From Curtobacterium sp. ZW137 (GTDB taxonomy: Bacteria > Actinomycetota > Actinomycetes > Actinomycetales > Microbacteriaceae), in assembly GCF_003762905.1 (NCBI RefSeq), contig NZ_RJKS01000001.1:434001-498000 (forward strand): a stretch of DNA of 64,000 nucleotides, written 5' to 3'. Positions 4,720 to 6,749 of the stretch are shown in pieces. Each line of letters opens with the position of its first letter. Positions within the stretch are counted from its first letter, which is position 1. The position numbers and the translations under genes were made by a program. Under the pieces are notes generated by a model. The model worked only from the letters and a program-made list of their open reading frames with translations. It searched no databases and was not told the DNA's origin.

Positions 4720-5979
4720 GTGCGCTTCTTCATCCCGATCCTCATCGGGCGGATCCTCCGTGCCCTCGCTCGCGCGCGGGGCGGCGGGTCCGCCTACCCG
4801 GGCTACATCGTCCTGAAGCTCGTGCCGGACTTCCTCCAGCACGTGACGAAGCAGTTCCCGAACGGCGTCGTGTTCGTGCTCGGCTCGAACGGCAAGTCCA
4901 CGACGACGCACATGATCTCCGAGATCGTCCGTGCGCACGGGCTCCGCGTGTTCACGAACCCCTCCGGCGCGAACCTGCCGCAGGGCATCGCGTCGGCGCT
5001 GCTGTCCGAGGTCTCCCTCGGCGGCCGACTCAAGGCGGACATCGGCATCCTCGAGGTCGACGAGGCCTTCGCCGTCGAGCTCGCGGGGATCCTGTCGCCC
5101 TCCACGGTGACGATGCTCAACGTGCAGGTCGACCAGCTCTACCGGTTCTTCGAGACCGAGCGCGTCGCGGCCATGATGCTCGACACGGCGGCACTGTCCA
5201 CCGCGAACGTGATCACGAACCACGACGACCAGTTCCTCGACGCCTACGTCGGTGTCGACGGGCAGCGCGTGCTCCGCTTCGGTGCGAGCGCCGAGATCGT
5301 CGCGGCCGCCCCGAACGGCCTGCAGAACGCGGACGACTTCGGTCGGGCAGCCGGTTCGGAGACGGCTGCGGACTCCGTGGTCATCGAGAACCGCGGCGAT
5401 GCCGCCACCATCGCCTTCGACGGCGCGGACATCCCGGTGCGCCTGCCCGCCCGTGGGCTGCACTACGCGGTCGACGCCGCAGCGGCCACGGCGACGGCCA
5501 GCGCCGCGCTCGGGGCCCAGTTCCGTGCGTCCTCCGTGACCGCCGCGTTCGCGAAGATGAAGCCGGCGTACGGTCGCGGTGAGCGGCTGCCCATCGCCGG
5601 CGAGTCCGCCGAGTTCACGATGTTCAAGAACGCCGCGAGCCTCCAGCTCAACCTCGACGCGCTGCCGGACCACCCCGAACAGGTGCTCATGGCGATCGAC
5701 GAGGGCACGCCGGACATCTCGTGGATCTACGACATCGACTTCTCCAAGCTCGACCACGTTGACGTCGTCTCCGGGGACAAGGCCTGGCAGATCGCGATCG
5801 CCCTCGAGCACGCCGGCGTCCGGATCGGCCGCGTGGAGCCCGACGTCGAAGCCGCGATCAAGCACATGCAGGGCCTCGGTGCGACCACCAGCGGGACGAA
5901 GAACTTCATCGTCAACTACGAGATCATGATGATCGCCCGGAAGGCCCTCGGCCACCCGGACCTGGAGAAGACCGCATGA
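4720..5979 (+). CDS. murT: MurT-like Mur ligase, cysteine-free (divergent lipid II isoglutaminyl synthase subunit)
   Basis: A 419-residue Mur-ligase-family protein with a C-terminal MurT domain (DUF1727). An N-terminal hydrophobic stretch (FFIPILIGRIL) is followed by the P-loop GSNGKSTTT (55-63). The middle domain holds LNVQVDQLYRFFETERV. The C-terminal domain keeps PAYGRGE (about 283-289) and DISWIYDIDF (332-341), equivalent to the MurT segment that donates the Asp of the MurT/GatD triad. Two things are odd. There is no Cys in the whole protein, so the Cys4 zinc ribbon of canonical MurT (expected near residues 185-225) is absent. The usual KNPAG motif reads KNAAS (303-307). The GTG start follows rpoD by 9 bases without a clear RBS. 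It overlaps the GatD-like gene by 4 bases, so the two are surely co-translated. The substrate may differ from ammonia; see findings. Confidence 0.85.
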   Translation: MRFFIPILIGRILRALARARGGGSAYPGYIVLKLVPDFLQHVTKQFPNGVVFVLGSNGKSTTTHMISEIVRAHGLRVFTNPSGANLPQGIASALLSEVSLGGRLKADIGILEVDEAFAVELAGILSPSTVTMLNVQVDQLYRFFETERVAAMMLDTAALSTANVITNHDDQFLDAYVGVDGQRVLRFGASAEIVAAAPNGLQNADDFGRAAGSETAADSVVIENRGDAATIAFDGADIPVRLPARGLHYAVDAAAATATASAALGAQFRASSVTAAFAKMKPAYGRGERLPIAGESAEFTMFKNAASLQLNLDALPDHPEQVLMAIDEGTPDISWIYDIDFSKLDHVDVVSGDKAWQIAIALEHAGVRIGRVEPDVEAAIKHMQGLGATTSGTKNFIVNYEIMMIARKALGHPDLEKTA

Positions 5980-6749
5980 CGGCCGAACGCCTGAGGATCC
6001 TGCACGTCTACCCGCGGCAGATGGGTGTGTCGGGGGACCGCGGCAACGTGGTGGCCCTGACGCGCCGCGCGGACGCCGCCGACATCCCCACAGAGGTGCT
6101 CGAGTACGCCCCCGGCGACGAGCTCCCCACCGCCGCTGACGTCGTCGTGGTGGGCAACGGCCCGCTCAGCGCGATGCGGTCCCTCGGTGCCGACGTGGCC
6201 CGGATCGCCGCACCCCTCCGGTCGTTCGCGGCCGACGGCGTCCCGATCGTGGCCGTCGGTGGCGGGTTCGACCTCGCGACGACCGAGATCGTCCCGACCG
6301 ACGGTGCGCCGCTCGCCGGCTTCGGCGTGTTCGACGCCCGAGCCGTCCGCGGAGCCGAGCGCCGGGTGAACTACTTCGTCCTCGAGACGCGGTACCCGCT
6401 GCTCCCCGGCGCGTCCAAGCGGCTCGCGGGCTTCGAGGACCACGCCACGAAGATCGAGCTCGGCGCCGGGGTGACCCCGTTCGCGGACGTCGTCTCGGGT
6501 GGCGGCAACCAGGCCGGTTCCGCGGTCGAGGGTGCGATCAGCGGGACCTCGTTCGGCACCCACACCCAGGGGCCGCTCCTGCCGCTGAACCCCGCGCTCA
6601 CCGACGCGGTCCTCGCGGCCGCGACGGCACGTCTCGGCCGCGAGTACGCGCCGGACCCGGAGCGCACGGCGTCGATCGACCGGTACGCGCGCGAAGCGCG
6701 AGCCACCGTCGACCGTTACGTCGACAAGGCGTTCAAGCGCATCGCCTGA
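5976..6749 (+). CDS. gatD: GatD-like class I glutamine amidotransferase without the catalytic Cys
   Basis: A 257-residue CobB/CobQ-like amidotransferase-fold protein, partner of the upstream MurT-like gene (ATGA overlap). The family's nucleophile elbow (ICGGYQ in canonical GatD, Cys about 94) reads VAVGGGFDL here: Gly95 stands where Cys should be, confirmed at codon 6258-6260 (ggt). The protein contains no Cys anywhere. The His-bearing motif is kept as GTHTQGPLLPLNP (His196). The early MGVSGDRGNVVAL segment, the GNGPLSAM loop and the ETRYPLLPG segment are otherwise in place, so this is not a decaying gene. Glutaminase activity is predicted to be lost, leaving a structural or regulatory role, or a binding role for another amine donor. 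Confidence 0.85.
   Translation: MTAERLRILHVYPRQMGVSGDRGNVVALTRRADAADIPTEVLEYAPGDELPTAADVVVVGNGPLSAMRSLGADVARIAAPLRSFAADGVPIVAVGGGFDLATTEIVPTDGAPLAGFGVFDARAVRGAERRVNYFVLETRYPLLPGASKRLAGFEDHATKIELGAGVTPFADVVSGGGNQAGSAVEGAISGTSFGTHTQGPLLPLNPALTDAVLAAATARLGREYAPDPERTASIDRYAREARATVDRYVDKAFKRIA

Follow-up and report, generated by a model that had tools for sequence, protein, structure and literature searches.

The closest described relatives of the gene pair considered here are the MurT/GatD isoglutaminyl synthases, in which an ATP-dependent ligase subunit, MurT, works with a glutaminase subunit, GatD, to amidate the D-Glu residue of lipid II. The same D-Glu α-carboxyl is used by the cross-links of group B peptidoglycan, and its amidation would remove the carboxyl on which these cross-links depend; among the actinobacterial families it is the Microbacteriaceae that have group B walls, and Erysipelothrix is another group B lineage. 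In Staphylococcus aureus, a Cys-to-Gly replacement of the GatD nucleophile (C94G) is reported to abolish glutamine-dependent amidation of lipid II, and the mutant is reported to support MurT with external NH3 at pH 8.5, as does the wild type; at pH 7.5, Table 2 of the same report has the C94G complex using neither NH3 nor NH4Cl (PMC3266927). For the Streptococcus pneumoniae enzyme, MurT Lys59 is described as essential and the N85A variant as inactive, and GatD Tyr30 is described as a plug of the ammonia channel and certain MurT residues as its gates (PMC6085368). The zinc finger of MurT is reported to be confined to a subset of bacteria (PMC6113224). In the open-licence literature, outside which most subscription papers lie, no paper was found that names an enzyme starting the group B cross-link by joining D-Glu to the bridge residue, and none that links MurT/GatD to the walls of Microbacteriaceae.

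The stretch of DNA analysed, referred to here as the window, comprises 64,000 nucleotides of Curtobacterium sp. ZW137 and carries a MurT-like and a GatD-like gene (Table 1). As described in the initial annotation, both genes are intact, they overlap through a shared ATGA, and neither protein contains a single Cys. In profile searches the Pfam cut-offs of Mur_ligase_M, MurT_C and GATase_3 are all passed, and a Mur_ligase_M and MurT_C ligase subunit encoded together with a GATase_3 subunit is the architecture of isoglutaminyl synthase. The NCBIfam equivalog cut-offs are missed by far, at 93.9 of 800 bits and 76.4 of 450 bits. The predicted structures point in the direction of the known folds: the GatD-like model (pLDDT 89.6) is closest to S. 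aureus GatD (6gs2_A; TMq 0.77, E 1.4e-20), and the MurT-like model (pLDDT 73.3) is closest to the MurT chains of 9sq9, 9sqj and 6gs2, with solved chains of Mur ligases of the MurC-F kind ranking after them. The single MurT_C match in the Curtobacterium genome makes the pair single-copy. The genome holds six Mur_ligase_M matches, five of which have provisional assignments, made in part by position. A second GatD was also sought among the other three GATase_3 matches, which by eye resemble PdxT, PurQ and a gene of the HisH region. Searches with these three models found no second canonical murT/gatD pair in the genome, whose presence the initial annotation would have counted against its reading.

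Table 1. Coordinates of the MurT-like and GatD-like genes and of their key sites in the window.
Feature	Coordinates	Strand	Remarks
MurT-like ATP-dependent ligase subunit	4720..5979	+	GTG start, 419 aa, Cys-free
MurT P-loop GSNGKSTT	4882..4905	+	Lys59 kept
MurT Asn85 of GAN motif	4972..4974	+	Predicted acceptor-carboxylate residue, kept
MurT Val137-Tyr141	5128..5142	+	S. pneumoniae MurT gate Arg135 and Asp139 replaced
MurT K303-N-A-A-S307	5626..5640	+	KNPAG in many canonical MurTs
MurT D332-I-S-W-I-Y-D338	5713..5733	+	Equivalents of S. pneumoniae Asp355/Asp361 ("negative gate"), kept
GatD-like subunit, predicted glutaminase-dead	5976..6749	+	257 aa, Cys-free
GatD Ser19 codon	6030..6032	+	Ammonia-channel plug Tyr position (S. 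pneumoniae GatD Tyr30)
GatD Gly95 codon GGT	6258..6260	+	Nucleophile elbow, Cys in canonical GatD
GatD His196 codon	6561..6563	+	Aligned to Tyr of GTYxHGP, not the catalytic His
GatD Gln198 codon CAG	6567..6569	+	Catalytic His position

The GatD-like subunit departs from the canonical enzyme at both catalytic residues. The placement of Gly95 at the nucleophile elbow of a GatD devoid of Cys is confirmed, and Gly likewise stands in place of Cys in 116 of the 120 GatD homologues listed. The accompanying statement that His196 is retained is mistaken: when G-T-H196-T-Q198-G-P is set against G-T-Y-x-H-G-P, H196 sits at the Tyr and Gln198 at the His. With Gly95 in place of the Cys and Gln198 in place of the catalytic His, the entire Cys/His dyad is gone. 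The initial suggestion that the pair may no longer amidate is accordingly narrowed to its glutamine-dependent part, which is well supported by the loss of both dyad residues and by analogy to the inactivity of S. aureus C94G with glutamine. The UniRef name "Lipid II isoglutaminyl synthase (glutamine-hydrolyzing)" is doubtful for some of the listed homologues, which lack the residues needed to hydrolyse glutamine.

The ATP and acceptor machinery of the MurT-like subunit is kept, with Lys59, Asn85, Glu112, Asp114/Glu115 and Arg286 all present in the alignment. These comprise the features of the Mur ligase superfamily, namely the P-loop Lys, the acidic Mg ligands, the acceptor Asn and the hinge Arg, and the catalytic residues are invariant across seven aligned sequences. 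The motifs GSNGKST, KNAAS and DISWIYDIDF are found as originally claimed, and the adenine-contact asparagines (Asn270/Asn273 of S. pneumoniae MurT) are replaced. The zinc-ribbon Cys residues are indeed absent, as had been pointed out, but this absence is uninformative, since a CxxC pair is likewise missing from 38 of the 49 MurT loci in other families of the order that are canonical, with Cys and His in place. Loss of the ribbon was therefore rejected as a marker.

Loci of the window's type in the Microbacteriaceae are termed class A, of which 85 were read, the window included. In every one of them the GatD nucleophile position is occupied by G, A, S, T or N and never by Cys, the plug position is not Tyr, and the MurT Arg135 position holds V, I, T, S, L, D or E, whereas nucleophile Cys, plug Tyr and gate Arg are all kept in 63 of 63 canonical loci (49 from other families and 14 from Microbacteriaceae). 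The GatD nucleophile, the GatD plug Tyr and the MurT gate Arg are thus lost jointly in class A. The Asp of the inter-subunit triad (S. aureus MurT D349, D332 in the window) is kept in 85/85 class A loci, and 52 of the 85 have a GatD with His and without Cys. By score, 97 family genomes are class A, including 16 not read at GatD, and 14 are canonical-only, including three (G209, G252 and G316) not read at GatD. In a class C profile search of genome contigs, no Microbacteriaceae locus was among the matches listed. The nucleophile Cys is present in 49/49 loci read from other families of the order, a control that is biased towards canonical pairs because the Pfam model with which it was drawn failed to detect 9 of 14 other family members sampled and passes over many class A members.

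Between the window and a locus of the same genus (L044), dN/dS is approximately 0.16 for GatD and 0.15 for MurT (the GatD comparison of L044 with L045 was disregarded owing to untrimmed ORFs), and for this reason neither gene looks decayed. Together with the invariant residues of MurT, these low values point to a working enzyme. It might be supposed that GatD is a relic in decay and that MurT, whether under relaxed constraint or acting as a regulator, carries out no wall step itself, and GatD does diverge the faster of the two, with 50% identity between Curtobacterium and Frigoribacterium compared to 64% for MurT. The low dN/dS of both genes, the invariance of the MurT catalytic residues and the position of GatD directly after MurT throughout the class A loci read make such decay very improbable.

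The window pair is best read as a MurT/GatD-type complex that has lost both glutaminase catalytic residues and is likely an ATP-dependent amino-acid ligase acting on the D-Glu α-carboxyl of a wall precursor, a tentative reading with a nearly even chance of being correct; in group B walls, this ligase probably forms the bridge. MurT would make the D-Glu α-acyl phosphate as before, and, in place of ammonia delivered by GatD, a cytosolic amino acid would enter MurT and act as the nucleophile. The amino acid predicted to be joined in Curtobacterium is D-ornithine. GatD would stay as a structural partner, as in S. aureus neither subunit is active alone. In group B walls the attached residue would constitute the bridge, to be joined later by a transpeptidase to the D-Ala of a neighbouring stem, and where a lineage has no such walls, a ligase of this type may supply a substituent that takes no part in cross-linking.

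Pairs without the GatD Cys also occur outside the window's clade. In a tree of 107 MurT rows built by a quick method, the GatD Cys state changes only twice, with the Cys lost in the window's clade (Microbacteriaceae) and in a Bacillota clade that includes Acetobacterium woodii (G439), Clostridia, Coriobacteriia-like families and some Microbacteriaceae. Seven Microbacteriaceae rows are nested within the latter, where starred branches force at least three changes, suggesting that the Bacillota form was transferred to the Microbacteriaceae at least three times. Like the window pair, the Bacillota clade has lost the Cys and kept MurT, and the His is lost in most members (the GatD of L337 has an alignment gap at this position). 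Unlike the window pair, its Cys loss is of independent origin in the tree, the zinc-ribbon cysteines are retained in most aligned members, and the MurT Asp355, whose equivalent the window keeps, is replaced in 11/11 Bacillota-type pairs of Microbacteriaceae. The wall of A. woodii is of group B, and the one MurT match in its genome is accompanied by a Cys-less GatD, making this its sole pair.

At two Bacillota loci the pair is associated with an ornithine-racemase-like gene, which in L213 overlaps the pair at its end (NF040742, E 2e-109, below the 480-bit cut-off) and has a homologue in the same position in L328, and at a third (L203) a diaminobutyrate transaminase (NF006733, 575 bits against a cut-off of 438) is situated 17 bases upstream. 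Such direct neighbour links are rare, at 3 of 48 Cys-less Bacillota loci versus 0 of 28 canonical ones. Across Clostridia genomes, ornithine racemase is found at E <= 1e-40 in 14 of 40 with Cys-less pairs, one of which (G681) also has a canonical pair, versus 1 of 37 with canonical pairs, these being the next-best scorers and not a random draw (Fisher p 0.0003, kinship ignored). The racemase is also found in the genomes of 13 of the 14 Bacillota rows of the A. woodii subclade. A role in adding a bridge amino acid would fit these links, the independent loss of Cys in Bacillota and the moves, at least three, into Microbacteriaceae. The racemase and transaminase neighbours belong to the Bacillota clade and not to that of the window; in the Curtobacterium genome no Orr-type ornithine racemase was found at E <= 1e-40, and three Alr-type genes are present instead.

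It is also conceivable that the pair has remained an isoglutaminyl synthase, with MurT amidating D-Glu from free ammonia and GatD acting only as a scaffold. The activity of S. aureus C94G with NH3 at pH 8.5 favours this, as does the frequency of Cys-less pairs in Clostridia (seen in 40 genomes that were read from among the highest-scoring of 341) and their presence in Atopobium parvulum, whose A4α wall needs no free α-carboxyl for cross-linking. This ammonia-dependent amidation is nonetheless unlikely: the C94G complex uses neither NH3 nor NH4Cl at pH 7.5, all class A loci read also lack the plug Tyr and gate Arg, the carboxyl required by group B cross-links would be removed, and the link to ornithine racemase would be left unexplained.

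A strict rule equating Cys-less pairs with group B walls was ruled out, and the evidence on the tracking that the initial annotation proposed to examine is mixed, with A. woodii in its favour. Leucobacter is reported to be B-type cross-linked (PMC4804768, PMC4511665), yet the two genomes read at GatD (G283 and G337) have only the canonical Cys/His pair, and the MurT of L. musarum scores with the canonical group. No MurT homologue was found at E <= 1e-12 in 27 of 149 Microbacteriaceae genomes (20 listed directly and seven inferred), and 23 of these 27 have only five Mur_ligase_M proteins; group B walls can thus be made without the pair. Additionally, although Cys-less pairs were seen in none of the 49 loci from other families, a control that favours canonical pairs, the A4α wall of A. 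parvulum shows that they do occur in group A. Two of these exceptions would be accounted for if the amino acid placed on the D-Glu α-carboxyl were a non-cross-linked side substituent such as Gly, with the bridge made by another enzyme; this reading covers both A. parvulum and the family genomes lacking the pair, and D-Glu is substituted with Gly in some group A cocci. That the substituent is not the bridge is, however, quite improbable, as the association with ornithine racemase and diaminobutyrate transaminase suggests the diamino acids of group B bridges, and the Curtobacterium genome shows no further Mur_ligase_M protein that lacks an assignment.

In Curtobacterium and most of its family the pair has thus lost its glutaminase residues. 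A whole amino acid is likely attached to D-Glu in place of the amide, and an unusual kind of wall cross-link would begin with this reaction. More broadly, it is possible, though somewhat less likely than not, that Cys-less MurT/GatD is the missing bridge ligase of group B walls, having arisen twice (in Actinomycetota and in Bacillota) with the glutaminase switched off and MurT taking a diamino acid or Gly and not ammonia, and that the Bacillota form entered the Microbacteriaceae on at least three occasions. If true, the gap at the first step of the group B cross-link could be closed, and an amidotransferase would be shown to become an amino-acid ligase through the loss of two catalytic residues. 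The proposed role resembles that of the ligases MurC-F, which work through an acyl phosphate and extend the stem by an amino acid or a dipeptide. MurT-type ligases differ from these in the presence of a GatD partner and are described as being without the UDP-binding N-terminal domain (PMC6113224, PMC6085368). With the isoglutaminyl synthases of S. aureus (6gs2/6h5e), S. pneumoniae (6fqb) and Streptococcus pyogenes (9sq9), the window pair shares its two-gene operon, its domains and folds, and the MurT P-loop, Asn85, acidic Mg residues, hinge Arg and inter-subunit Asp; it differs in that the catalytic Cys and His, the plug Tyr and the gate Arg are gone, and in scores far under the equivalog cut-offs.

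The MurT-like and GatD-like reading frames of the window are both intact, overlap by an ATGA and encode proteins with no cysteine at all, as the initial annotation had it. The MurT-like protein carries the Pfam domains Mur_ligase_M and MurT_C and the GatD-like protein GATase_3, all above curated cut-offs, and both match the NCBIfam isoglutaminyl-synthase equivalogs with scores far under their cut-offs. Their predicted folds are closest to solved MurT and GatD chains, with 6gs2_A as the top structure match of the GatD model (pLDDT 89.6; E 1.4e-20) and 9sq9_B that of the MurT model (pLDDT 73.3, built on only 7 sequences; E 4.7e-17). 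The closest named homologues of the pair are from Curtobacterium, and, measured against a locus of the same genus (L044), MurT and GatD show dN/dS values of 0.154 and 0.160, respectively.

Coordinates of the pair and of the alanine-racemase-like genes discussed
Feature	Location	Strand	Basis
MurT-like ORF	window 4720-5979		
GatD-like ORF	window 5976-6749		
Two alanine-racemase-like ORFs after the Bacillota-type pair	L079 860-1816 and 6-860	-	
Three alanine-racemase-type genes of the window genome (L282, L284, L283)	G000:C3:51440-53196 and C3:385672-386328		

Residues characterised in Streptococcus pneumoniae (PMC6085368) and Staphylococcus aureus (PMC6113224) were mapped onto the pair. The catalytic His, first thought to be kept as His196, is not: His196 aligns to the Tyr of the canonical GatD motif G-T-Y-x-H-G-P, which reads G-T-H-T-Q-G-P in the window, and Gln198 occupies the catalytic position. 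Both dyad members, Cys and His, are therefore lost in the window. Across 85 loci of the same Microbacteriaceae type (class A, the window's own included), the nucleophile position holds Gly in 61, Ala in 16, Ser in four, Thr in two and Asn in two, and the His is kept without the Cys in 52. The plug Tyr of the GatD ammonia channel and the gate Arg of MurT are each present in 0/85, whereas nucleophile Cys, plug Tyr and gate Arg are all found in 49/49 canonical loci of other families and 14/14 of the same family; by this mapping, the three form one functional unit, removed in class A. The MurT Asp355 equivalent is retained in all 85, and Lys59, Asn85, Glu112, Asp114, Glu115 and Arg286, which serve ATP and acceptor binding, are invariant across 7 aligned sequences; two adenine-contact asparagines give way to Tyr249 and Asp252 in the window. 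The zinc ribbon is indeed absent from the window MurT, but this says little, as 38/49 canonical loci likewise lack the CxxC pair. One class A pair, L144 (G210:C1, a contig of 927,303 bp), has Ser at the nucleophile position of a GatD that contains nine Cys at other sites. Two residues that define a glutamine-hydrolysing isoglutaminyl synthase proved absent, so the pair should not be classified under that name.

Profile searches with MurT_C, Mur_ligase_M and GATase_3 found no second canonical pair in the window genome (100% complete), because MurT_C matches once and the other matches are taken for other enzymes. Six proteins match Mur_ligase_M: the window MurT, four from a single gene cluster that are taken for MurC, D, E and F, and a protein encoded elsewhere that is taken for FolC; three further GATase_3 matches resemble, by eye, PdxT, PurQ and a HisH-region gene.

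A MurT homologue at E <= 1e-12 occurs in 122 of 149 Microbacteriaceae genomes and is missing from the other 27 (a tally of 136 at E <= 1e-3 takes in weak matches to other Mur ligases). Class A, assigned by score and reading, occurs in 97 (GatD read in 81), a Bacillota-descended Cys-less type in 11 (all read), and the canonical Cys/His type alone in 14 (11 read); G247, G257 and G307 combine class A with a canonical pair. Two genomes carry two Cys-less pairs that differ from each other, G305 (L085/L086) and G338 (L089/L090), which suggests two acceptor or amine specificities. The canonical group takes in Leucobacter (G283, G337) and Canibacter, and the full Cys/His pair is seen in L132-L138, L142 and L143, from Leucobacter/Canibacter-type and a few other Microbacteriaceae. 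Only five Mur_ligase_M proteins occur in 23 of the 27 MurT-less genomes (G198, G214 and G215 are among the 27). Group B walls are reported for the entire family (PMC10978784), and a B-type cross-link containing diaminobutyrate for Leucobacter (PMC4804768, PMC4511665). Group B walls without a Cys-less pair, in Leucobacter and the 27 MurT-less genomes, speak against the initial proposal that the pair attaches the bridge amino acid to the D-Glu alpha-carboxyl.

A further point against that proposal is the bias of the control in other families. MurT_C matches 71 of 198 genomes of the order, 65 of them outside Microbacteriaceae; 50 of these 65 loci were read, and GatD, readable in 49, was canonical in every one. 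Of the 14 other Microbacteriaceae sampled in the order, Pfam MurT_C (PF08353) failed to detect 9, at least one of them class A (G051). Because this model detects class A poorly, Cys-less pairs could have been overlooked in other families, and, as it misses many Microbacteriaceae MurTs, Pfam-based surveys undercount the variant. Independently of Pfam, 116 of the 120 window GatD homologues listed lack Cys; their named sources are Microbacteriaceae genera except for one UniRef label, Neobacillus, and the sole named Cys-bearing homologue listed is a Gaiellales MAG.

On a MurT tree of 107 rows, built by a quick method with SH-aLRT support and without bootstrap, the GatD Cys state needs only two changes. 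One Cys-less clade joins the window to 23 other class A rows (support 100); the other (42 rows, support 99) unites 35 Cys-less Bacillota with seven Microbacteriaceae rows, which, given the starred branches, need no fewer than three changes, read here as three transfers into the family. The Bacillota Cys-less profile (E <= 1e-60) matches 118 of 396 Actinomycetota genomes, all outside the class of the window organism; the ten best matches are Cys-less, four of them from genus g302, and the ten loci that follow comprise nine canonical ones and one that lacks a readable GatD. In G1074 (g302, taken as Atopobium parvulum), the Cys-less pair is the single match. The A. parvulum wall is given as A4alpha (PMC3035223), and a Cys-less pair without a group B wall speaks against a bridge ligase; a ligase adding a non-cross-linked substituent remains a live rival. 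Two Clostridia GatDs show a single dyad change and are possible intermediates: L378 (G468) has Gly and keeps the His, and L373 (G437) keeps the Cys and has Asp in place of the His.

Diamino-acid links appear in the Bacillota clade. The gene overlapping the end of Cys-less gatD in L213 (Clostridia) scores 365.8 bits (E 2e-109) against ornithine racemase (Orr), under the model's cut-off of 480; L328 has a homologue at the same place, and in L203 a gene 17 bases upstream of murT is a diaminobutyrate--2-oxoglutarate transaminase that, with 575 bits, exceeds the cut-off of 438. Such adjacency is rare, at 3/48 Cys-less Bacillota loci vs 0/28 canonical. The signal is clearer when the whole genome is searched (E <= 1e-40): Orr occurs in 14/40 Cys-less vs 1/37 canonical Clostridia (Fisher p 0.0003, ignoring relatedness); all 77 were read at GatD, the canonical set being a non-random draw of next-best scorers, and G681, counted as Cys-less, also carries a canonical pair. 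Orr is present for 13 of the 14 Bacillota rows, taken by genome, of the Acetobacterium woodii subclade, which further includes two Microbacteriaceae rows and one Actinomycetota row, and is patchy or absent in the remaining Cys-less subclades. The A. woodii wall is of group B (Kandler and Schoberth 1979). B2alpha is among the Eubacterium wall types (PMC11382707). Of the two Microbacteriaceae genomes, G306 (L079) has two alanine-racemase-like ORFs after its pair, and none was seen at the G246 locus (L076). That these direct ornithine and diaminobutyrate links belong to the Bacillota clade and not to the window's speaks against the bridge proposal.

The window pair most likely works like a Mur-type ligase. 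MurT would keep its acyl-phosphate chemistry beside a dead GatD and, with plug and gate lost, accept the amine directly; the acidic MurT gate (Asp332, Asp338) could be the docking site of a cationic diamino acid. The Curtobacterium wall has D-ornithine as its group B bridge, and the predicted product would be D-Orn attached to the D-Glu alpha-carboxyl. Of the three alanine-racemase-type genes in the window genome, two are in tandem adjoining a glmS-like ORF and the third adjoins a D-Ala-D-Ala-ligase-like ORF (names assigned by eye); any one of the three might supply D-ornithine. Full-text literature searches listed no paper dealing with a Cys-less GatD or with a MurT/GatD pair in a group B wall, and one study with MurT/GatD trees (PMC11915815) does not mention Cys loss in the passages covered. 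An ammonia-dependent amidase is the other live rival. S. aureus MurT and GatD are each inactive alone, and with GatD C94G glutamine-dependent activity is lost, MurT using external NH3 at pH 8.5 and neither NH3 nor NH4Cl at pH 7.5 (PMC3266927); the window GatD carries this same Cys-to-Gly change.
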